From Verrucomicrobiia bacterium (GTDB taxonomy: Bacteria; Verrucomicrobiota; Verrucomicrobiia; Limisphaerales; UBA1100): a DNA stretch of 64,000 bases. The notes below the pieces were generated by a model. That model was not told the origin of the DNA and did no database searches. It saw nothing but the letters and a program-made list of their open reading frames with translations. This document shows, piece after piece, positions 2,761 to 58,961 of the stretch. The translations under genes were made by a program, and so were the position numbers. The stretch spans positions 62,001 through 126,000 of the forward strand of contig JAAZZB010000044.1 in the NCBI GenBank assembly GCA_014239365.1. Reading direction: 5' to 3'. How positions within the stretch are numbered: position 1 is the stretch's first letter; every line of letters starts with the position of its first letter.

Positions 2761-5397
2761 CTACTGATACTTGTGATACAGCCCGCTGAGCACGATTAGG
2801 ATCACGCCCAATCCCATAAAAGTGAGAATGCGTGGGACGCCGTCGAGCTTGCTCCACGCGAGGAAGACGAGATTGGTTGTGGCGGCGAGCATCACGATGA
2901 GGCCGAAGATGCGGTGCGTGCGTTCGGCGGCGTAGAGGCCGAGGCCAATGTAAATACCGGCGAGCAGTCCCCACGTGAGCACGTCCAAATCGCCGGGCAC
3001 CATTCGCGAGGCCCATACCCACAGGCTGAGGTTCATCGCCACAATCAACAGCACGTGCCCGACTTCGGGGATAATATTTTCCGTGTCGCGTTTGCGCGCG
3101 AAATATTGCGCGCCCAACAGCAGGGCAATCGCCAGCCCATCCCACGCCACCGGTTCGTGCCAATGAAAAGCGCAGTGCCAGCCGAACATCATCCATCCGA
3201 GCAACCCAAACGCGGCGCCAACTAAAATGCGTTCGAAACGCGTGCGCCGCGCGTGGGCCATTATATGGCCGATGGCTACGGCGCTGAAGGTGACAAATAA
3301 ATATTCCGGTGCCACAAAACTATACCCCCACGCGAGCACCAACAACCAGCCGAACAGAAAATAAACCGACGTGTTCGCCTTGGCCAATTTGGCGAGCGGA
3401 CTTTGTGGGTCGTCAATCAGCATGCGCGCGTGCAGCAGAAAATGGCTCATCCCCAGCATCGCCAGCGCGGGGATGAGGGAAAGCACGCGATCGGCATCGG
3501 CGCCCATCATTTTGAAGGGCGAAAATAATGCGGCCACCACCAGCCACGCCTGCGCGGCCATCAGCGCGGGCGTCAGCCGCAACATCAACGCGCCCGTGCT
3601 GAGCGCGATGCCGATGACGGGCAGCATCCACAACAGCCGCTCGTCCGCGACAAATTTGATGGCGATGAATAGCCCCACCAAAACCGCCGTGACCTGTCCC
3701 ACCGCGCTGGTGGGCGCGATGTATTTCTCGGCCGATTCGAATCGTTTTCGCAAATTCTCCTGCGAGCGATTGAGTGCCCACGCGTTGGCCAGCAGCAGCA
3801 CGGGCGCGATGAGCGCCAACCCCCAAGTCAGTTCGTTGCCCGGCAAAAAAGTTTGCGGCACTACCATCGCCGCGCCGCCCCACAACTCCAGTTGACCCAC
3901 GCCAAACAATTGCATCGACCGCATCGCCCAACCGAATCCCGTGAACGCCAGCCCCAGCAATGCCAGACACCATGTGGCATTATTGAGGTCGAAATTCAGT
4001 CCGATGCCCAGCGCGATGAGCACGGCCGCCAGCGCCAGCAATTCGTTGGCCAACCCTTTTTCATCCGGCAACTGCCGCCGCAAAAATCCGTGCAGTGCCG
4101 CCAACGCCAAACCATACACCAGCGGGAACACCCAATAATTTCCCCGCATTTCCGGAAGCGCGAGCAGTGTGAATGTGATGAAACAAAAATACGCGATGTT
4201 ATTGATGTGAATGAAGCTGGCGCGCCGGGCGGCACTCATTGTTTCGTGGCGGGTGAGGAGGGCCGCCAGCGTGAAGATGATCCAGTACGCCGTGAGAAAT
4301 CCCGCGCCATTCCAGAACCCCGCGTCAATGCCCGCCGGATGCATAAATCGCCAATAACCAAATCCGGCGAAGGTGGTGACGAGACTCAGAAAAGGAAGGT
4401 TAGCCCAACGATTGCGAATGACAAACACCGTGGCCGCGATGGCAAGCGCCACGTTGGAGAGCAGCGTGAAGCCTACGTGCGCGCCCGTGGCGTCGTGGAT
4501 GAGCGGCACGTACGAGGCATAATACGCGCCGGCAATGGCGAACATTGCCATCACTTCCGAGCGCCTTCGCGTGGCCACTACGACGATAAAAATCGCCCAA
4601 GCCGCAAGCAGCACGCCCGCCAACACGGGGCTTCCGATGAGGCCAAGATACGGGCGCTCCACAAAATAAAGTGCGTACGTGGAAAAATACACGGCGGCAA
4701 AACCGCCGCCGGTCAGCACTTCCGAATAATTTTTTAAAGACTTAAACCGCCGATGCAACCACAGCCCCGCCGTCAGCATTCCAAAGCTGACCGCATATAA
4801 TAGTGACGCATTGATATAAGGGCGCACCGAGTCGCTGATGCCCTCGTAGCCCATTCGCGCGAGATACACCAAGCCGGTGAGCACCATCAACACGCCCAAC
4901 CGCACCAACCACACTTTGCCAATTTGCAATTCAAACGAGCCTTTGTTCGCAGGCGCAACGGGCGCAACAGGAATGGGTTCAATCGCAGGTTGCGGAATGG
5001 GCTCGGGAGCAGGATCAATTTCCGGCAACGTGGGCAGCGGTTTTTTGGGTTGCACCGTCGAAGGAATCGGATCGGGCGTCGGCGAAGGCACGACCGGTGC
5101 GGGCGCTTGTTCCGGGGTTGCCGATGCGGTCGGATCCAAAACCGGTGGTAAATCCGAGAGCTCCGCCTTGGCTGGAACAAATGAGGCGGTTTGGGAAGTT
5201 GTGTGAGAAGGGCCTTCGGTTCCGCCCATTTGCTGGCACAGCCCTTCAATTTGCTGCGCCTGCGCGCGGGTTTGGTTTTCCAAAGTAACCACGCGTTGAC
5301 TCAAATGCCTGACGGAATTCGCGCTCGTAGACCGCGCCGCAATCGCAATCAATCCAACCACCAGCAATACCGTTGAGAAAAAGCACATCCATTCCAT
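2761..5397 (-). CDS. DUF2339 family polytopic membrane protein
   Basis: 878 residues from ATG 5397. An open frame extends further upstream to 5757, but that stretch overlaps the start of metH and shows no homology, so I reject it. An N-terminal hydrophobic helix (LLVVGLIAIAA) is followed by a coiled-coil stretch (residues ~20-45) and a Pro/Ala-rich linker. From residue ~165 there are about 25 hydrophobic segments. The FELQIGKVWLVRLGVLM entry into the membrane domain is typical of DUF2339 (predicted membrane protein, function unknown). It is divergent from metH, with 150 bp between starts, and convergent with moeA. No catalytic residues can be assigned. Confidence 0.85.
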   Translation of the reverse strand: MEWMCFFSTVLLVVGLIAIAARSTSANSVRHLSQRVVTLENQTRAQAQQIEGLCQQMGGTEGPSHTTSQTASFVPAKAELSDLPPVLDPTASATPEQAPAPVVPSPTPDPIPSTVQPKKPLPTLPEIDPAPEPIPQPAIEPIPVAPVAPANKGSFELQIGKVWLVRLGVLMVLTGLVYLARMGYEGISDSVRPYINASLLYAVSFGMLTAGLWLHRRFKSLKNYSEVLTGGGFAAVYFSTYALYFVERPYLGLIGSPVLAGVLLAAWAIFIVVVATRRRSEVMAMFAIAGAYYASYVPLIHDATGAHVGFTLLSNVALAIAATVFVIRNRWANLPFLSLVTTFAGFGYWRFMHPAGIDAGFWNGAGFLTAYWIIFTLAALLTRHETMSAARRASFIHINNIAYFCFITFTLLALPEMRGNYWVFPLVYGLALAALHGFLRRQLPDEKGLANELLALAAVLIALGIGLNFDLNNATWCLALLGLAFTGFGWAMRSMQLFGVGQLELWGGAAMVVPQTFLPGNELTWGLALIAPVLLLANAWALNRSQENLRKRFESAEKYIAPTSAVGQVTAVLVGLFIAIKFVADERLLWMLPVIGIALSTGALMLRLTPALMAAQAWLVVAALFSPFKMMGADADRVLSLIPALAMLGMSHFLLHARMLIDDPQSPLAKLAKANTSVYFLFGWLLVLAWGYSFVAPEYLFVTFSAVAIGHIMAHARRTRFERILVGAAFGLLGWMMFGWHCAFHWHEPVAWDGLAIALLLGAQYFARKRDTENIIPEVGHVLLIVAMNLSLWVWASRMVPGDLDVLTWGLLAGIYIGLGLYAAERTHRIFGLIVMLAATTNLVFLAWSKLDGVPRILTFMGLGVILIVLSGLYHKYQ

Positions 5398-10417: not shown

Positions 10418-10995
10418 AAACTCCCCGACACATCCCACTACTGCTCGGCTTGCTGGCGCTTTTCACATTGATGCGTTGGCCTGGATTGTTGCCTTGGAAC
10501 TTCAGCCCCGTGTACGCCATTTGTTTTTGCGCGGGAGTTTATTTCAAAGGCCCGCGCGCGTGGCTCGTGCCGGTGGCGTTTATGTTTGTGAGTGATGTGT
10601 TGATGAATTTTTTCCATTGGCGCGGATTGGGGTTTTCAACTTTCACCTCGCATATGTGGGTGACGTACGCGTTGTACCTTGGACTAGCGGCGTTCGGCTG
10701 GTGGATGACTGATAAGGCTCGGCCGACGGCATTGATCGCGGGCGGCGTCCTTGGCGCGTGCGGATTTTTTCTGGTCATCAACTCGTTCGCGTGGTTGAGC
10801 AATCCGGTTTACGCAAAGACGTGGGCGGGATTGGTGCAATCGTTCACCGTTGGCCAAGTGGGTTTTCCGCCACCGATTGTTTTTCTGAAAAACACGATCG
10901 TCTCGGGCGTGTTGTTCACGGCGACGATTGTGTGCGCTGTGAACTTTGCGCGAGCAAGGGAACGTGAGGCGACAGAATTTCAGTTGAAGGCTTGA
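10414..10995 (+). CDS. DUF6580-like small integral membrane protein
   Basis: 193 residues with about six hydrophobic segments, overlapping the previous gene by 4 nt (ATGA). The N-terminal half (ALFTLMRWPGLLPWNFSP, then ALxxGxYF-like and FVSDVLMN motifs) matches my memory of DUF6580/ECF-transporter S-component-like proteins, which often carry an FxPxxAixLf motif and a conserved Asp in the third segment. The substrate is unknown. Its C-terminal tail (RAREREATEFQLKA) is charged and cytoplasmic. A REP-like element starts 1-2 nt after its stop. Confidence 0.65.
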   Translation: MKTPRHIPLLLGLLALFTLMRWPGLLPWNFSPVYAICFCAGVYFKGPRAWLVPVAFMFVSDVLMNFFHWRGLGFSTFTSHMWVTYALYLGLAAFGWWMTDKARPTALIAGGVLGACGFFLVINSFAWLSNPVYAKTWAGLVQSFTVGQVGFPPPIVFLKNTIVSGVLFTATIVCAVNFARAREREATEFQLKA

Positions 10996-10996
10996 G

Positions 10997-11050
10997 GGTA
11001 GTGTGGTTTTTTCGAAACTGCCTTGGCGCGCTCGGAGAGCACACCCTACC
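10997..11050. repeat. REP/BIME-like element, family B copy 1 (54 bp)
   Basis: It begins GGTAG and ends CTACC. Two inner 9-bp stem positions are each closed by a 3-nt loop (TTC, GGA) and separated by TT. It has the same length and layout as the copy at 58908-58961. Stem 1 is partly decayed (wobbles and one mismatch), and stem 2 pairs GGCGCGCTC with GAGCACACC (two mismatches). It fills the gap between a plus-strand gene and glmM exactly; its last base is also the last base of the glmM TAG stop. Confidence 0.75.
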
Positions 11051-16930: not shown

Positions 16931-18019
16931 ATGAAACGCGTGCGTCATTTTGCCAGCGACAATAATTCCGGCATCTGCCCCGAAGCCTGGGCCGCATTGG
17001 AGGAAGCCAACCACGGACACGCCTCCGGCTACGGCGAGGATAAGTGGACTCAAAAAGCCTGCCGACTCATTCGCGATTTATTCGAGACGGACTGTGAAGT
17101 ATTTTTTGTGTTCACCGGTTCCGCCGCCAACGCGCTCGGGCTTGCGTCGGTTTGCCGTAGTTATCATTCCATCATTTGCCACGAGACGTCCCACGTGCAA
17201 AACGACGAATGCGGCGGGCCGGAATTTTTCAGCGGCGGTGCCAAAGTGCAAACACTGCCCGGCAAGGACGGCCGACTCACACCCGACGCGATCCTCGCTG
17301 CGGCTGCGTCCAGGCGCGATCTGCATTTTCCCAAGAGCGGCGCACTGAGCCTCACGCAATCCACCGAGCTGGGCACAGTGTATTCGCCCGCGCAAATCAA
17401 GGCCAACTGTCGCGCGGCAAAAAAGGCCGGATTAAAAACTCATATGGACGGAGCTCGTTTTTCCAATGCCGTTGCCAGCCTTGGCGTGCTTCCCAAGGAC
17501 ATCACTTGGAAAGTCGGCGTGGACATACTCAGTTTCGGTCTCACCAAAAACGGCACGCACGCCGGCGAGGCGCTGATTTTTTTCGACAAAACTCTCGCGC
17601 GTGAATTTGATTGGCAAAACAAACAGGCCGCACAACTCGCCAGCAAAATGCGTTTCCTCGCCGCGCCGTGGGTGGGAATGCTCAAGGACGGCGCGTGGCT
17701 GCGGCACGCTGCGCACGCCAATAAAATGGCCGCCCGCCTGGCGCGCGCGCTAAAAAAAATTAAGGGCGTTGAACTACTCATGCCGCGCCAAGCCAACGGC
17801 GTGTTTGTGGAATTGCCATTACCGGTGATCGACGCGCTGCACACGCGCGGCTGGCATTTTTACACCTTCATCGGCGAAAGCGGCGCGCGCCTAATGTGCT
17901 CGTGGGATACCACACAAGAAGACGTGGACGACTTCGCCGCCGACTTAACGGAACTGATGGCCAACCGCAAAAACTTAAAAACCAAACCCGCCAAGGGGCA
18001 GGGGCGAAAGCCGCATTAG
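16931..18019 (+). CDS. threonine aldolase-like PLP-dependent lyase
   Basis: 362 residues. Fold-type I beta-eliminating lyase family. HFASDNNSGICPEAW and NHGHASGYGED at the N-terminus match the low-specificity threonine aldolases that cleave threonine or allo-threonine to glycine and acetaldehyde. Other motifs are VFTGSAANALGL (~60), HETSHVQNDECGGPEF, THMDGARFSNAVASLG (PLP Asp) and SFGLTKNGTHAGEAL (~200), where the Lys should form the internal aldimine. The family usually reads FGGTKNG, so this is a conservative variant. It starts 21 bp after the peptidase stop. A REP-like pair follows its stop by 15 bp. Confidence 0.88.
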   Translation: MKRVRHFASDNNSGICPEAWAALEEANHGHASGYGEDKWTQKACRLIRDLFETDCEVFFVFTGSAANALGLASVCRSYHSIICHETSHVQNDECGGPEFFSGGAKVQTLPGKDGRLTPDAILAAAASRRDLHFPKSGALSLTQSTELGTVYSPAQIKANCRAAKKAGLKTHMDGARFSNAVASLGVLPKDITWKVGVDILSFGLTKNGTHAGEALIFFDKTLAREFDWQNKQAAQLASKMRFLAAPWVGMLKDGAWLRHAAHANKMAARLARALKKIKGVELLMPRQANGVFVELPLPVIDALHTRGWHFYTFIGESGARLMCSWDTTQEDVDDFAADLTELMANRKNLKTKPAKGQGRKPH

Positions 18020-18033
18020 ATTTTGGGTTTAAT

Positions 18034-18083
18034 GGTAGGGACGCGCTGTGCGCGTCCACGGACACGCGCAGCGTGTCCCTACC
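18034..18083. repeat. REP/BIME-like element, family A copy 1 (50 bp)
   Basis: Terminal GGTAG and CTACC can pair. Inside are two perfect 8-bp hairpins with 3-nt loops: GGACGCGC/GCGCGTCC (loop TGT) and GGACACGC/GCGTGTCC (loop GCA), joined by AC. The copy at 44342-44391 has the same length and layout with compensatory stem changes. GTAG next to a hairpin is the hallmark of REP sequences recognised by RAYT (TnpA-REP) enzymes. The two halves point outwards as in a BIME. It lies between two convergent genes. Confidence 0.8.
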
Positions 18084-18097
18084 GAAAAGAAAACCAA

Positions 18098-18120
18098 CCC
18101 GGGCCATCGGCCCGGGCTAC
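18098..18120 (-). repeat. Solitary REP-like hairpin with GTAG foot
   Basis: On the minus strand it reads GTAG followed by a perfect 8-bp hairpin CCCGGGCC/GGCCCGGG with a 3-nt loop. It sits 14 bp from the family A pair and 6 bp beyond the stop of the chagasin-domain gene transcribed towards it. Its stem sequence differs from families A and B, but the GTAG foot and 3-nt loop are the same. Confidence 0.65.
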
Positions 18121-41939: not shown

Positions 41940-42003
41940 GTGCTGCCGGCATCTTGCCGGCAGAAGTTGCGCCCCCGACCTGCCGGCAAGATGCCGGCAG
42001 CAC
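41940..42003. repeat. Mirror hairpin element, family C copy 1 (64 bp)
   Basis: Perfect 24-bp inverted arms (left arm 41940-41963, right arm 41980-42003) flank a 16-nt centre. Each arm is itself a hairpin CTGCCGGCA/TGCCGGCAG with a 3-nt loop, bounded by GTG or CAC. It sits between two convergent genes, 2 nt from the stop of the minus-strand gene. The second copy is at 47262-47324. Confidence 0.85.
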
Positions 42004-42005
42004 AT

Positions 42006-43499
42006 TCACTTCCCCTTCGGCAAATCCACCGGCGTGTATTGCCAGGTGAGATCGCCTTGTTTCCAGTCGTGGTTGACTTTGTCATCACGGAAAACCAGCT
42101 TGCCGCCGTCATCCTTCTGATTCCACCCCACGCCGTGCAGGCGATATCGATCCTTGACGCGCGCGTACGCATAGGGTTTGCCCGTAAACGGATCGTGCGG
42201 CGTGCGCGCCTTAAGTTTCGCCAATTTGGCCGGATAACTGTCGTGTTCCAGCCGATGCAATTCAAGTAAACACGCAATGCGCGCGTGATCCACTGCCGCC
42301 TGCCCGCTGCCTGTGCGAATGCCCACCTGCCCCACAGCGGGCAACAACATACCGGGTAAAAGGTTATACGGATTGGGATCGCGGCCCAAACCCTCGATGT
42401 GCTTTTCAAATGCCGCCGCCACTGTCGGCTGGATGCGGCGCGCCTTGGCGTCCACGATGCGCTGTGTAAATTTAATGTGCGCAAAATTGAGATTCATTTG
42501 GTTTTGGTACAACCAACCGCTGGGAGTCACGTTCAATGCGGCAAAAATATTTTTCCCATCGCCTAAAAATTCCGCCCACATTCTCCGTTCATCCGGTTTT
42601 TGGGCGCGCAAATTGTCAATCCACAGGTTGGCCAATTCGCGTTCGCCTAGCATTGCACGGTGCTGGCCGTCGAGCAGATCAGTATCGGCCAGCAATTGCT
42701 CCAGCGCGCCGAGTTGCGCGGCGTTCCATTTTCGGCTGCCGATGCCTTCCCAAACCGGTTGCATGGCCTGATCCAGCAGAGCAATCCGCACTAAATGAGA
42801 AATTAGAAACGGCTCGTCCTGGATGGAATTGGCAAGAAACAAACTCATCCGCACATCGGCGAACGCAGCAACGGCATCGTCCTTGGCCAAATGCGCCAGC
42901 GCGCGCAGCGTGTAGCCGCGGCCGACATTTCGCAGCACAGTCAAGTGCGGCAGCAGCGCGGCAAAGGTGGCCTCGTAATCAACATCGAACCGGCATCGCG
43001 GGCGGTCTTTCGCGGCCTTGGTAAGTTCGGCAAAATCAGCCTCGTGTTTTTTGAGCGCAAAGAGAATATCATCCGCGGGCTGTCCTGCTTTGGCTGGACT
43101 TGGCCAATCCTTTTGGTCTCGGAAATATTTCTGCCACGCTGCGAGATCAATCGTTCGACCCGTTTTCCATCGAACCAAATCCGGCTTGTCACCTTCCAGC
43201 TTCATCAGGCGTTCGACGCGCAGCGGGGTCTTCTTTTTGCCCGATTCCAATTCTTTGAATGCCAGCTCCCGATTGTCATCAAACAACGCCTTGAGCATCG
43301 GCGTGTGGGCAAAATTCTTTTCCGTGGGCACAGGTTTGGGCACAATTTGTTTGTAATCGAACACTTCGCCTTTGGCTTCCCAATCTTTTTTGAATTTTTC
43401 CCAAGCGGCCTTGCCCCGTAGATTTTCACCCGCATAAATCAGGATGGCTAATCCCACGAATCCGGTGATGCTAAGGCCCATTGTTTTCGTGCTGCTCAT
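42006..43499 (-). CDS. hypothetical membrane-anchored helical protein
   Basis: 497 residues. One N-terminal transmembrane helix (~8-24, LSITGFVGLAILIYAG), then a mainly helical extracytoplasmic domain. GYTLRALAHLAKDDAVAAFADVRMSLFLANSI (~190-225) looks like a helical repeat. The C-terminal part ARIACLLELHRLEHDSYPAKLAKL followed by DPFTGKPYAYARVKDRYRLHGVGWNQKDDGG resembles a pattern I know from many hypothetical PVC proteins and type II pseudopilin-like tails. No family name can be given. Divergent from the 43588 gene, 88 bp between starts. Confidence 0.75.
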   Translation of the reverse strand: MSSTKTMGLSITGFVGLAILIYAGENLRGKAAWEKFKKDWEAKGEVFDYKQIVPKPVPTEKNFAHTPMLKALFDDNRELAFKELESGKKKTPLRVERLMKLEGDKPDLVRWKTGRTIDLAAWQKYFRDQKDWPSPAKAGQPADDILFALKKHEADFAELTKAAKDRPRCRFDVDYEATFAALLPHLTVLRNVGRGYTLRALAHLAKDDAVAAFADVRMSLFLANSIQDEPFLISHLVRIALLDQAMQPVWEGIGSRKWNAAQLGALEQLLADTDLLDGQHRAMLGERELANLWIDNLRAQKPDERRMWAEFLGDGKNIFAALNVTPSGWLYQNQMNLNFAHIKFTQRIVDAKARRIQPTVAAAFEKHIEGLGRDPNPYNLLPGMLLPAVGQVGIRTGSGQAAVDHARIACLLELHRLEHDSYPAKLAKLKARTPHDPFTGKPYAYARVKDRYRLHGVGWNQKDDGGKLVFRDDKVNHDWKQGDLTWQYTPVDLPKGK

Positions 43500-43587
43500 A
43501 GTGTTAACCTACGCCGTTCACCTCAAATTGCAAGCGGTTCATTAATTTGAGCATCGCAGTTGAAAAATGCGTCCAATGTTCCACGCT

Positions 43588-44346
43588 ATGAAAACCATCC
43601 TCTTCCTTTGCCTCACGGGATCGCTCGCGATCGCCGCACCCAAACATCCGCTTACCAAGCTGGAATTGCAACAAGCCAAAGAACGCGCCGAGATGTTGGC
43701 CACGCATCACGCCGAGCTACAGCAATTGCTAAAGCGGCAAATCGCCGCCGTCACAAAACTGCGCCAAAAATATTTGAAGGCCGGTGATGCCCAAAGTGCC
43801 GCCGCCGCCGCGAAGGTTTTGGCGGAGCTGCGCCGCAATACGGATTTTCAACCGGCTCAAGCGAAGAAAAAATTATTCGTCGAGGCCATCGTGGATGCCA
43901 AGCCGGCGGCGGTGAAGATGATGCTGCTCAAGCCCACGCGTTTGGTGGAAGCCGAGAGTGTTGAGAAAGCGGAGAATACGGAGAAAGGCCGATGGGCGCG
44001 TGTGCCTAATGCGCTGCTCGGCGCGAGTATTTATGCCACGCCCCGCACGGGCGCTAATGGCATCGCGGATTTTACGGTGACAAAAACCGGCCAGATTTAT
44101 CTCGCGCTGAATTACGATTACCAAGGCAACGGCAGCGGCGGCTGGACGGAGGAGCGCTGGATGGCGGCGGACTTTATGGCCGCCGGTTGGGCGCAAGTGC
44201 GCGACGCGCAAATGGTGGCGTGGAATAATCGAACGTATTCGGTGTTTACCCGCAAAGTGGAGAAGGGGGAAAAATTCAGATTACGCTGCAACAAATACGA
44301 GCCGCCTTTTGTGATTCTTCTCGATGGCGGCAAAGCGGCAAGGTAG
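43588..44346 (+). CDS. hypothetical secreted protein; stop codon lies in a REP-like element
   Basis: 252 residues from ATG 43588 (the frame opens at 43567). Signal peptide KTILFLCLTGSLAIAAP, an extended coiled coil ~25-95 (KLELQQAKERAEMLATHHAE) and a beta-rich end ~125-250 with IYLALNYDYQGNGSGGW and RKVEKGEKFRLRCNKYEPPFVILL, perhaps a carbohydrate- or partner-binding fold. Not recognised. Its TAG stop (44344-44346) is the TAG of the GGTAG terminus of the family A element, so insertion of the element may have set the present C-terminus. Confidence 0.75.
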   Translation: MKTILFLCLTGSLAIAAPKHPLTKLELQQAKERAEMLATHHAELQQLLKRQIAAVTKLRQKYLKAGDAQSAAAAAKVLAELRRNTDFQPAQAKKKLFVEAIVDAKPAAVKMMLLKPTRLVEAESVEKAENTEKGRWARVPNALLGASIYATPRTGANGIADFTVTKTGQIYLALNYDYQGNGSGGWTEERWMAADFMAAGWAQVRDAQMVAWNNRTYSVFTRKVEKGEKFRLRCNKYEPPFVILLDGGKAAR

Positions 44347-44391
44347 GGACATGCTGCGCATGTCCATGGACGCGCGCAGCGCGTCCCTACC
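44342..44391. repeat. REP/BIME-like element, family A copy 2 (50 bp)
   Basis: The same 50-bp plan as 18034-18083: GGTAG, 8-bp hairpin with loop TGC (GGACATGC/GCATGTCC), AT, 8-bp hairpin with loop GCA (GGACGCGC/GCGCGTCC), CTACC. Both stems are perfect although two stem bases differ from copy 1 in each hairpin, so the changes are compensatory. The left end supplies the stop codon of the plus-strand gene, and the right end is 5 bp from the stop of the minus-strand gene. Confidence 0.85.
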
Positions 44392-44396
44392 GAGTA

Positions 44397-45953
44397 TCAT
44401 CGCTCTGCGGGGATGATCAACGATCGTAAGTCGAGCGTGGTGGCACCATTCCGGATGATCATTTGTGGCGCGGGGGTTTCGGTGGCGGTATTTAGAAACA
44501 CCTCGGCACCGGAAAAGCTCGAATGACCTGATACCGGCTCAAACATCATACCGGCTGGAGCCTCACCAAGGGGTTCGCTCATCGGTGAAAATGAATAGAC
44601 CACTCCTGAATCGAAGTTGGTTCCTAAGTTGCCCTGCTTTTTCCAAGGATTACTCTTGGGATCGATTTGGTAGTTGAGTCGTTTTTCCACGTAATCGAGT
44701 TGGCGCTTGAGCTGGGCGTTGGTGATGTTGTGCCGCACGGAATCAATGAGCGCCTTGCGTTTGGTGGCGGTTTCTTTGTCGGCGTTATAGTACATGCTGT
44801 TGAGGGCTTTGTACTGGTCGGTGTAATAGACTTTGCGGGAATCAGTTTCGGTCATCGGTTGGTTCATAATATCGCGAAACATTTGGTCGGCTTGCGGGTG
44901 TTGGCCGGTGAAGCGCATTACGTAGCCGATGAGTGAGGCGCGGTAGTTTTTATTGAGCCGCTCATCGTTCAAGGCGTGGGCGAGAAGAGGCACGGATTTT
45001 TCCTTGAGGACGGTGTTGAGATAGTTGAGGGCTTGTTGGTTGAGGCGGCCGTTGTCGGTGATGAGCAGTTCCTGCGCGTGCTTGGCAAAAGTGGCGTCAC
45101 GATGGCGGGCGAGGATGGCGTACAGTTGAGTCTCGTGTTGTTGGTCGCGGGCGGCTTCCTCAGAGGGATTGAGCAGAAGATCGTGGGCGACTTTGAGGGC
45201 GAGATCGGTGTATTGGTCGGGGGCGATTTCCGCCAGAAGATAATCAAGAAACGCCGCCTCGCCGCCGATCGTGGCCATGGCCAGCGAATCGGCCAGTAGT
45301 TTTTCAGAAACGGTGCCGCCGGTTTGGGCGACTACTTGGAAGAGCCCCATCCGCAGCGTGGGCGGCACAAGATAGCCCGTGCCGGGCGAGCCGAGTGAAC
45401 TGGAATAGTAAGTGTAAGTGCGCTTGATGGGCGTGGTGGTTTGCGTCTCGGTTTTTTTCGCCGCGTTTTGGTTTTGGCCATTGATGCGGATGGTGAGGTT
45501 CTGGTTGTTGCTGCGCTGCCAGTTGGTGATGTAATTGCGGTTCTGCGTGTAGGTGCGGCCGAAGGAAAGGTCTTCGCCGCTGGCAATAAAATCGCGAATG
45601 GCCGGCAGCGCTTTGGGGCCGAGATCGGTGAGGGTTTCAAAATGATGCACCGCGTGGCGTAGCTCGGTGAAGCGTTGCTTGCTGTTCGGATCCACTTTAA
45701 GCAATTGCTGCAGCACCTCGGCGGGATTCACTTCCACGGTGACCGTCTCGGTGAGGGTGATCACTTCCGGATTATTGGCGGCGGCGCGGGCGCGTTGGGT
45801 GGTGGAACGCAGTTCGCCGGCATTTTCGGCAAGCGTGGTTTCATTAGCGCGGCGTTCGCTGCTGAGTTTTTGGTCGTAATGGCTGGAGGTGAGCAGCCAA
45901 GCGGCGATGGCGCCGAGGGTCATTGAGAGGCAGATTCCGGTTGCGGCTTTCAT
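44397..45953 (-). CDS. hypothetical helical protein, last gene of the macroglobulin operon
   Basis: 518 residues. One N-terminal anchor or signal (~4-24, TGICLSMTLGAIAAWLLTSS), a coiled coil (~27-60), then alpha-helical HEAT-like repeats ~75-420. A Gln/Asn/Thr-rich loop (~150-185) interrupts them. The last ~80 residues (FDSGVVYSFSPMSEPLGEAP onward) look extended. It starts 9 nt after the DUF4139 stop. No family recognised. Position suggests an accessory scaffold for the operon's large envelope protein. Confidence 0.75.
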   Translation of the reverse strand: MKAATGICLSMTLGAIAAWLLTSSHYDQKLSSERRANETTLAENAGELRSTTQRARAAANNPEVITLTETVTVEVNPAEVLQQLLKVDPNSKQRFTELRHAVHHFETLTDLGPKALPAIRDFIASGEDLSFGRTYTQNRNYITNWQRSNNQNLTIRINGQNQNAAKKTETQTTTPIKRTYTYYSSSLGSPGTGYLVPPTLRMGLFQVVAQTGGTVSEKLLADSLAMATIGGEAAFLDYLLAEIAPDQYTDLALKVAHDLLLNPSEEAARDQQHETQLYAILARHRDATFAKHAQELLITDNGRLNQQALNYLNTVLKEKSVPLLAHALNDERLNKNYRASLIGYVMRFTGQHPQADQMFRDIMNQPMTETDSRKVYYTDQYKALNSMYYNADKETATKRKALIDSVRHNITNAQLKRQLDYVEKRLNYQIDPKSNPWKKQGNLGTNFDSGVVYSFSPMSEPLGEAPAGMMFEPVSGHSSFSGAEVFLNTATETPAPQMIIRNGATTLDLRSLIIPAER

Positions 45954-45962
45954 AATTTTTCC

Positions 45963-47345
45963 TTACTTGCGAACGCTCGTCCCGTGGCGGGTGGTCAACT
46001 CATATTGGACTGTCCGTCGTTCGTTCGGCTTCAAAGCTAACACAAATTTTATCTTTTTGGCATCCACTTTTTCAAACTTTTCTTCCGTGGCTAAATCCCA
46101 ATCGCCACTAAAATTGCGGCGGATATCGACTGTCACCGGAATGCTCTTGGAATTTTGCAGCTCGATTTCCCAAGTCGCCTTCGTTGTCCAGCCGGTGACG
46201 TTGCCGTTCTTGTCAAAGCGGATGTCTTCCTTTTTCCAGTCCATCAACTTCGGCTCGATGCGAACTTCGGCGTCATTGCCCAGTTGCATTTCCACTTCTT
46301 CATCGACGGGAATGTACTTCACCGCCGTGCGACCGACGAAGTTGTAAAGGTTATCCTTCGTCACCGATCGAAACGCCATCACCGTGCCATCGGGCAAAGG
46401 CTCGGTGCCGAGCTTGCTGTCTTTGTCGTTTTTGAATTTATAAAACCGAATCACCGCCGCGCCGTAGCGTTCCTTTTCGTATTTGTAATAACTGGTGATC
46501 GGCACCTCGGCGGCTTTGAATGAGGGCAGGCGTTTGCTCCAGCCATTGGCAATGGTGTCGCGGCCTTCGACGGTGTAGAGAAAATATTCGCCCACGGCTT
46601 CCTTCACCACTTCCTTGGCTTTTTGGCTGGCTTTGCCATCCATTTCTTTAAAGAATTTCTGTCGGGACAAGCGATCTCTTTCTTCACCGGGTTTATCCGC
46701 CGGAATGTTCAAATTTAATTTTCCCGAACTCGGCCGCGACAAATTCACAATGCTCTCCACCAACCGAACCACCCCGACCATCAACCGAATTTGCGCATCC
46801 GGATAATCTTCGCCACTGCGATTTGTGACGCGGACATTTCCAGCGAATGTCATTTGATTTTCGTTCGCGTTGGCTTCGCAAACATAATCCGCCGCCCACG
46901 CAATGCCGCTGGTGAAATACCGAATCTCCACCTTCACTTCGCCGGCGACTTCGCTATTGATGTTCCACTCTAAAGTATTGGTGACACGCGGCGGGAAGCG
47001 CACATCGAGCACTTCAATTTGATCGGCCTTTTGCAGTGGCCGAAACTCCACACTCGTGGGGTCAATGAGTGTGTTCGCCCACGAAAACTCTAAACGGTTC
47101 GAGCCTTTCTTGAAAGTTAACGTGCGTGTTTCTTTGACCAACGTGAGGTCCACGCTGTTATAGATCGTCAACTGCACTGAGTCGCGGCCCGGAAGGCTGG
47201 TGACGTTGATGCGGGCTTGGGCGGTGAAGGCGATGAGGAAAATGCCGAGGAGGGCGCTTATGTGCTGCCGGCATCTTGCCGGCAGGAGTTGCGTGCGGAT
47301 CTGCCGGCAAGATGCCGGCAGCACATTAAAGCTACTTCGTTGCAT
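45963..47345 (-). CDS. DUF4139 domain secreted protein with repeat-inserted signal peptide
   Basis: 460 residues from ATG 47345, which overlaps the previous stop by 14 nt. Residues 8-28 (VLPASCRQIRTQ plus LLPARCRQH) are exactly the translation of the family C element at 47262-47324. Without them the N-terminus would read MQRSSFN joined to ISALLGIFLIAFTAQA, a normal signal peptide. The mature part is DUF4139-like: VQLTIYNSVDLTLVKETRTL, EFRPLQKADQIEVLDVRFPP, NTLEWNINSEVAGEVKVEIRYF and the GNVTGWTTKATWEIELQNSK beta-sandwich end. It is closely related to its upstream neighbour. The family is secreted and of unknown activity. Confidence 0.85.
   Translation of the reverse strand: MQRSSFNVLPASCRQIRTQLLPARCRQHISALLGIFLIAFTAQARINVTSLPGRDSVQLTIYNSVDLTLVKETRTLTFKKGSNRLEFSWANTLIDPTSVEFRPLQKADQIEVLDVRFPPRVTNTLEWNINSEVAGEVKVEIRYFTSGIAWAADYVCEANANENQMTFAGNVRVTNRSGEDYPDAQIRLMVGVVRLVESIVNLSRPSSGKLNLNIPADKPGEERDRLSRQKFFKEMDGKASQKAKEVVKEAVGEYFLYTVEGRDTIANGWSKRLPSFKAAEVPITSYYKYEKERYGAAVIRFYKFKNDKDSKLGTEPLPDGTVMAFRSVTKDNLYNFVGRTAVKYIPVDEEVEMQLGNDAEVRIEPKLMDWKKEDIRFDKNGNVTGWTTKATWEIELQNSKSIPVTVDIRRNFSGDWDLATEEKFEKVDAKKIKFVLALKPNERRTVQYELTTRHGTSVRK
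47262..47324. repeat. Mirror hairpin element, family C copy 2 (63 bp) inside a coding region
   Basis: Arms of 24 bp (47262-47285 and 47301-47324) are identical to the copy at 41940-42003; only the centre differs (15 nt instead of 16). At 63 bp it equals 21 codons, so it keeps the DUF4139 gene in frame. It lies between codon 7 and the hydrophobic core of that gene's signal peptide. Confidence 0.88.
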
Positions 47346-48660
47346 TAGTTCCTAGGCGGGTGGTGAGGGTGTAGTTGAGGGTTCGCTTTTCGCCGGGGTT
47401 GAGTTGGAGGACGAACTTGATTTTTTTGGCGTCGATCTTTTCGAACTTGTCTTCAGTGGCTACTTCCCAATCGCCACCGAAATTGCGGCGGATGTCGAGG
47501 GTGACGGGGATGGATTTGGAGTTTTGCAGCTCAATTTTCCAAGTGGCTTTGGTGGTCCAACCGTTGACGTTGCCGTTTTTGTCGAAACGGATGGCGTCTT
47601 TTTGCCAGTTCATTAACTTCGGCGCGATGCGGACTTCGGCGTCGTTGCCCAGTTGCATTTCTACTTCTTCATCGATGGGGATGTACTTTACCGCTGTGCG
47701 GCCGACGAAGTTGTAGAGGTTATCTTGGGTGACCGTTCGGAAGGCCATCACGGCGCCGTCAGGGAGGGGCTCTTTGCCGAGTTTGCTTTTTTCGTCGTTC
47801 TTGAATTTATAGAACCGCATCACCGCTGCGCCGTAGCGTTCTTTTTCGTATTTGTAATAACTGACGATTGGCACCTCGGCGGTGTTGAATGAAGGGAGCC
47901 GCTTGCTCCAGCCATTGGCAATCGTGTCGCGTCCGCCAACGGTGTAGAGAAAATATTCGCCAAGGGCTTCTTTGGCGACGCCGCCGTTGCGTTTGCGTTC
48001 GTCTTCGTTGCGGTCGCTAAGTTTTTCAGTTCGTCCGAACAGTGATTTATAGGCGTAATGATTTTTGGCCGCGTCGCGTCTGGGTTGGTTGGCGCCGCCT
48101 TGTTGGGCGAGATTGATGATGCTCTCGACGAGCCGAATGACGCCGACGACCAATCGGATTTGAGCCTTCGGATAATCTTCGCCGGAGTTGTTGGTGATGA
48201 TGACGTTGCCGGCGAAGCGCATTTGGTTTTCGTTGGCGTTGGCTTCGCAAACGTAATCGGCGGCCCACGTGATGCCGCTGGTGAAGTAGCGAATCTCAAC
48301 TTCCACTTCGCCGGCAATTTCGCTGCGGATGTTCCACTCAAGCGTGTTCGTGACACGCGGCGGGAAACGAACGTCGAGGATGTCAATTTGATCGGCCTTT
48401 TGCAGTGGGCGAAACTCGACGCTCGTGGGATCGATCAATGTTCCGGCCCACGAAAACTCCAGCCGATTGGTGCCTTTCTTGAAGGTGAGCGTGCGTGTTT
48501 CTTTGACGAGCGTGAGGTCGGCGCTGTTATAGATAGTGAGCTGAACCGAGTCGCGCCCCGGAAGGCTGGTCACGTTGATGCGGGCGGAAACCACGGTAGC
48601 CGCAAGCAATCCTAAATAAATCAATCCACGCATTCCGAGTTGGACGGGGTTTTTTGTCAC
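47332..48660 (-). CDS. DUF4139 domain secreted protein
   Basis: 442 residues from GTG 48660, one base after the macroglobulin stop. ATG 48633 (signal RGLIYLGLLAATVVSA) is a good alternative start. The mature sequence starts ARINVTSLPGRDSVQLTIYN and is nearly identical to the downstream paralogue over the first ~130 residues and over the C-terminal half. The middle differs (QQGGANQPRRDAAKNHYAYK here). DUF4139 proteins are secreted beta-rich proteins, some once called mucoidy-inhibitor-like. It probably works with the macroglobulin-like protein; that is inference from operon position. Confidence 0.85.
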   Translation of the reverse strand: MTKNPVQLGMRGLIYLGLLAATVVSARINVTSLPGRDSVQLTIYNSADLTLVKETRTLTFKKGTNRLEFSWAGTLIDPTSVEFRPLQKADQIDILDVRFPPRVTNTLEWNIRSEIAGEVEVEIRYFTSGITWAADYVCEANANENQMRFAGNVIITNNSGEDYPKAQIRLVVGVIRLVESIINLAQQGGANQPRRDAAKNHYAYKSLFGRTEKLSDRNEDERKRNGGVAKEALGEYFLYTVGGRDTIANGWSKRLPSFNTAEVPIVSYYKYEKERYGAAVMRFYKFKNDEKSKLGKEPLPDGAVMAFRTVTQDNLYNFVGRTAVKYIPIDEEVEMQLGNDAEVRIAPKLMNWQKDAIRFDKNGNVNGWTTKATWKIELQNSKSIPVTLDIRRNFGGDWEVATEDKFEKIDAKKIKFVLQLNPGEKRTLNYTLTTRLGTNATK

Positions 48661-58907: not shown

Positions 58908-58961
58908 GGTAGGGCGGTTTCTCCGAAACCGCCTTGGCGCGCTCGGAGAGCACGCCCTACC
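58908..58961. repeat. REP/BIME-like element, family B copy 2 (54 bp)
   Basis: GGTAG, perfect 9-bp hairpin GGCGGTTTC/GAAACCGCC with loop TCC, TT, hairpin GGCGCGCTC/GAGCACGCC (one mismatch) with loop GGA, CTACC. This is the better-preserved partner of 10997-11050. It lies between the convergent vapC-like and aldolase genes. Confidence 0.85.

Follow-up and report, generated by a model that had tools for sequence, protein, structure and literature searches.

The 50-bp sequence at 18034-18083 of the window, by which we mean the whole 64-kb stretch of DNA analysed, raises the question of whether two abutting hairpins between GGTAG and CTACC ends constitute a mobile repeat and, if so, which enzyme moves it. 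The feet of this element (GGTAG, 18034-18038; CTACC, 18079-18083) enclose a first hairpin (stem 18039-18046, loop 18047-18049, stem 18050-18057), a linker at 18058-18059 and a second hairpin (stem 18060-18067, loop 18068-18070, stem 18071-18078). It is a heterodimer, GGACGCGC / GGACACGC, and is flanked by two genes that converge on it, ending at 18019 (+) and 18127 (-). A second member of the same family, family A, occupies 44342-44391 (50 bp; GGACATGC / GGACGCGC) and is inverted relative to the first. The TAG in its left foot (44344-44346) serves as the stop codon of the plus-strand gene 43567-44346, and the minus-strand gene on its other side ends at 44397. Family B is represented by two 54-bp elements. 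The one at 58908-58961 has feet at 58908-58912 and 58957-58961, stems 58913-58921/58925-58933 and 58936-58944/58948-58956, loops at 58922-58924 and 58945-58947 and a linker at 58934-58935; its second stem includes one non-standard pair that is common to most B copies. The other, at 10997-11050 in the convergent gap between a plus-strand gene ending at 10995 and a minus-strand gene ending at 11050, has decayed, and pairing is lost in its left hairpin. No strand is assigned to any of the four. The original prediction gave all of them GGTAG...CTACC ends, 3-nt loops and a 2-nt linker, a plan confirmed at the coordinates given, with the 10997 copy degenerate. Its generalization that every hairpin has a 3-nt loop did not survive the wider sample: family-A loops are also 4 nt long, and 23 of 44 copies measure 51 bp.

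Other repeats share the window. A lone REP from a different family (GTAGCCCGGGCC-GATG..GCCCGGG) lies on the minus strand at 18098-18120, 14 bp from the 18034 element. This CCCGGGCC REP family has 95 perfect copies in the genome and flanks a RAYT gene on contig C58; it occurs within 150 bp of 12 of 45 A copies versus 2 of 30 B copies. A double-hairpin repeat without a GTAG foot, GTGCTGCCGGCATCTTGCCGGCAG...CTGCCGGCAAGATGCCGGCAGCAC, is present at 41940-42006 and 47262-47327, and the latter copy matches many places in same-genus genomes. The window genes 45979-47345 and 47332-48660 are adjacent tandem paralogues with 75-80% DNA identity over 300-nt blocks.

Pattern searches of the genome that contains the window (G000; 3.3 Mb in 89 contigs, a draft of 93.6% estimated completeness) revealed about a hundred copies, a positive outcome for the genome-wide check that the original prediction had named. 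The pattern GGTAGGGN{10,38}CCCTACC occurred at 51 sites versus 4 for a reversed-pattern control, and GGTAGGGCN{16,46}GCCCTACC at 46 sites versus 1, the two sets overlapping slightly. Perfect family-A half-REPs numbered 101, mostly in head-to-head inverted pairs. Like GTAG REPs, the halves are short palindromes with an unpaired GTAG at one end, numerous and mainly extragenic; like the constituents of REPINs and BIMEs, they occur more often as doublets than as singlets. Units are 48-55 bp long, and 39 of 44 family-A copies are heterodimers that combine a GGACGCGC stem with either a GGACACGC or a GGACATGC stem. Of six same-genus relatives, four carry family A, which was not detected in any of the 33 other genomes searched.

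Folding of single copies left a choice between two local hairpins and one long hairpin. As single-stranded DNA, the 18034, 44342 and 58908 elements folded far more stably than their shuffled sequences (z values of -6.9, -4.7 and -4.4, respectively), whereas the decayed 10997 copy gave -0.15 and did not form the two hairpins. The best DNA fold of the 18034 element is one long hairpin, as is the best RNA fold of all four window copies. Since single-copy folding is not decisive, we relied on covariation among the copies to choose. Among 44 family-A copies, local stems placed Watson-Crick pairs at 683 of 704 positions, compared to 588 of 704 for the long hairpin, and in 16 distinct 50-bp A copies the paired cells amounted to 98.2% (local) versus 91.5% (long), with one covarying pair. 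The 21 B/C copies, which include a third family, C, were 94.0% paired with 26 both-side changes under the local model and 77.0% paired with 9 under the long hairpin, where the cells count sequences and not independent events. Shuffling afforded a mean of 6.0 both-side changes, with none of 500 shuffles as high as 26, and the two-hairpin covariation also exceeded that of slid registers. By this comparison of copies, the conserved design is two local hairpins, clearly so in B/C and modestly in A. The expected excess of compensatory changes is thus present and is strongest in B/C. The original prediction had drawn part of its case from family A, citing two changed positions per stem on both arms, but that count was inflated, mostly because the 18034 and 44342 elements are oppositely oriented. 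Once the latter is reverse-complemented, the two differ in a single compensatory pair (C-G to T-A in one of the stems), a base of the linker and a base of a loop.

A mobile repeat of this kind would be expected to have a RAYT partner according to the original prediction, and such Y1 genes are indeed present. Searching the genus with NF047646 (REP-associated tyrosine transposase; curated cut-off 80 bits) returned matches on G000 contigs C58 (two genes), C72 and C75, and on contigs C49 and C37 of the sister genome G004. RAYT-A (C75:3988-4371) has a family-A element on either side (C75:3898-3948 and 4461-4511), RAYT-C (C72) sits between C-type elements, and RAYT-B (G004 C49) adjoins a complete family-B element and a partial one. 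A RAYT beside its own repeat family is therefore found for A at C75 and for C at C72, and for B only in G004 C49; none adjoining B elements was found in G000, a draft of 93.6% estimated completeness. RAYT-B and RAYT-C scored 90.3 and 87.5 bits, above the cut-off, and have open reading frames that are 56% identical to each other. RAYT-A, at 67.6 bits, fell below it and carries an in-frame TAA some twelve codons short of the expected end, although it retains the HLH motif and the tyrosine region. A histidine-x-histidine motif and the conserved tyrosine are found in all three proteins. The TAA near the end of RAYT-A means that family A may no longer be active in G000. No RAYT was found at E <= 0.001 in the relatives G005 and G006, despite family-A elements there.

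Other Y1 genes were considered as partners and rejected. The C58 match (118.6 bits) was set aside as a mobiliser of family A, given that one C58 RAYT is flanked by its own, different REPIN of roughly 97 bp and that the C75 gene matches better. The other RAYT-like gene on C58 (L025, C58:41256-41633) and that on G004 C37 (L024) are flanked by GGACTCGCRAGCTCGTCCCTCC hairpins without GTAG, an arrangement like the TIRtrons of Di Nocera et al. (2013, PMC3733652). Three further Y1 genes in G000 (L016 on C81, L017 at C17:47783 and L018 on C3) match NF033573, the IS200 family, and each lies between its own inverted hairpin repeats; these hairpins differ and have no GGTAG, and the three genes were rejected as partners. 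IS200/IS605 enzymes are nonetheless a related Y1 transposase family. Beyond the genus, 230 of the 293 genomes representing the order contained RAYT matches. An automated scan of 80 named loci with RAYT relatives, mostly from Verrucomicrobiota MAGs, detected a compact GTAG dimer (linker of 5 nt or less) at 6 loci and a spaced dimer at 21 others; the remaining 53 had neither. Linkers of the GTAG dimers beside these relatives, from Verrucomicrobiota and neighbouring groups, ranged from 2 to 76 nt, and linker length therefore varies widely inside one enzyme clade.

Comparison with same-genus relatives revealed orthologous gaps both with and without elements. The gap of the 10997 element is empty in G002, G005 and G006 and holds a half copy in G004; that of the 18034 element is empty in G005; and that of the 44342 element is empty in G004, where the foot position reads GGTAA. 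Two further sites are also unoccupied in relatives, C7:86473 in G002 and G005, and C19:19994 in G002 and G003. Conversely, the 58908 element is common to G000 and G004 at the same site, and those at C7:82422 and C19:34432 are common to several relatives. Most insertion points could not be placed exactly, as the gaps without an element are short intergenic stretches that have diverged. These site differences show gain or loss between species, either of which the comparison alone would allow, and it is from such presence and absence that we infer mobility. A 4.2-kb segment of G000 (C19:34432-38735; L103 15033-19335) is bounded by two B elements, and matches join straight across it in G005, G001 and G002, as recombination between elements would give.

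The elements are concentrated at gene 3′-ends. With genes called by a simple codon-usage caller and not by curated annotation, 63 of 82 elements fell between two called genes and 8 overlapped one. The 63 classifiable elements comprised 29 between convergent, 30 between same-direction and 4 between divergent genes, while convergent gaps make up 7 of 43 in the window. Seventeen genes end exactly at a foot TAG and none runs past a foot. RAYT genes at L021, L023 and L140 likewise stop at a TAG within a GTAG foot, whether that of a neighbouring repeat or a remnant foot. At C19:19994, the occupied G004 site reads TTTGGTAG and the empty G002 site TTTGGTGA, with a GGTGA stop at the foot position. Together with the GGTAA noted above, these two cases suggest that the foot may replace a pre-existing stop codon. 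We tentatively consider, as an idea that is rather more likely wrong than right, that elements insert at GGT(A/G) stop contexts and convert TAA or TGA into the foot TAG, leaving the protein almost unchanged. Selection against frame-breaking insertions would also yield the 17-to-0 pattern.

Two explanations would do without mobility. The elements might be bidirectional transcription terminators or mRNA 3′-end stabilisers kept for their function, as the excess in convergent gaps, the scarcity between divergent genes and the long stable hairpin formed by RNA copies would lead one to expect. Their flanks do not bear this out: T accounts for only 19-35% at each of 12 flanking positions, and at least four T among the first six positions were seen in just 10 of 164 flanks. 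Classical intrinsic terminators, which pair a GC-rich hairpin with a T run, were rejected on this basis. Family-wide identity, the embedding of RAYT genes and absence from orthologous gaps would also be unexpected of resident terminators, and we regard this explanation as very unlikely, though the elements may have a secondary effect on transcripts. Even less credible, and in our judgement close to dismissible, is a structured non-coding RNA family or cis-regulatory RNA element. The hairpins do covary, but no Rfam family reached the gathering score anywhere in the window, the palindromic element has equivalent strands, and copies lie downstream of genes in either orientation as well as flanking RAYT genes.

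A stronger contender grants that RAYTs once spread these repeats and holds that they are now inert in G000, moving only by recombination or gene conversion. The in-frame TAA of RAYT-A fits this account, as do the many A copies retained by G005 with no RAYT match, the B sites common to several species, the decay of the 10997 copy and the absence from three relatives of the 4.2-kb segment between two B elements. Against it, many copies are near-identical, occupancy varies among sister species, and the frames of RAYT-B and RAYT-C are open. We consider such fossil repeats possible, if on balance somewhat unlikely.

Overall, the elements are very probably non-autonomous miniature transposons of the REPIN or minimal BIME type, worked by each family's own RAYT, an assignment that draws on sequence comparison and on analogy with characterized enzymes. 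The support in hand consists of copy number, the two-hairpin design, embedded RAYTs, empty orthologous sites and concentration at gene 3′-ends. Most likely the elements depend on dedicated RAYTs encoded in G000 or in the genome of a sister species. The central proposal of the original prediction, that two REPs form a minimal BIME moved by a RAYT/TnpA-REP Y1 enzyme, is accordingly well supported by the copies, the flanked RAYTs and the compensatory changes. Mechanistically, the element would be a head-to-head dimer of two GTAG-type REPs whose spacer has shrunk to about 2 nt. By analogy with TnpA-REP, each half would present, in single-stranded DNA, GTAG and a hairpin of 8-9 bp closed by a loop of 3-4 nt. 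The family's RAYT, a putative Y1 HUH single-strand nuclease, would read foot and hairpin, nick alongside and then join the element to a new single-stranded site.

The arrangement mirrors several known systems. GTAG repeats have been sorted into 24 families (Di Nocera et al. 2013, PMC3733652), and the GTAG-17 HH dimers of Opitutus terrae have partners only 1-2 bp apart (PMC3733652). The original prediction knew of no description of this exact form; these O. terrae dimers are one. They share with the present elements an outer GTAG foot, two short-loop hairpins, a 1-2 bp spacer and the same broad bacterial group, whereas the species and RAYTs differ; the comparison covers the layout as described. 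For GTAG REPs generally, heterodimers are preferred, sites lie between convergent or unidirectional genes with a 3′-end location, TAG feet provide stop codons, and the repeats lie on both sides of RAYT genes (PMC3733652). REPINs were defined in Pseudomonas fluorescens SBW25 (Bertels and Rainey 2011, PMC3116915), where an inverted REP doublet is likewise the replicating unit and each group lies beside its own RAYT. The invariant 16-mers of SBW25 REPINs, however, are 71 or 110 bp apart (PMC3116915), farther than the whole unit length here. TnpA-REP, a Y1 HUH enzyme, recognises GTAG and a hairpin, and in S. maltophilia the REP consists of a 16-nt palindrome, perfect but for an interruption of 3 nt, straight after GTAG (PMC8266576), a layout that the family-A half reproduces. 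The biochemistry of BIMEs and TnpA-REP is known from E. coli, S. maltophilia and Marinomonas, in contrast to the present elements, which are known from sequence; BIME linkers are also variable and longer than those described here. The elements fit the REPIN kind in every tested feature except the below-cut-off score of RAYT-A, and A, B and C are new families of an already described kind, the comparison with GTAG-17 being by description only.

Outside Proteobacteria, these families provide a REPIN system that is compact and well populated and has almost lost its spacer. All three are related, and each can be paired with a RAYT. The span of linker lengths among RAYT relatives could be used to find the smallest amount of DNA on which a REPIN can work. 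Should the stop-codon pattern be a product of target choice, the reported supply of TAG stops by GTAG REPs would be explained, and insertion at stop codons would be a built-in way of living in a gene-dense genome.
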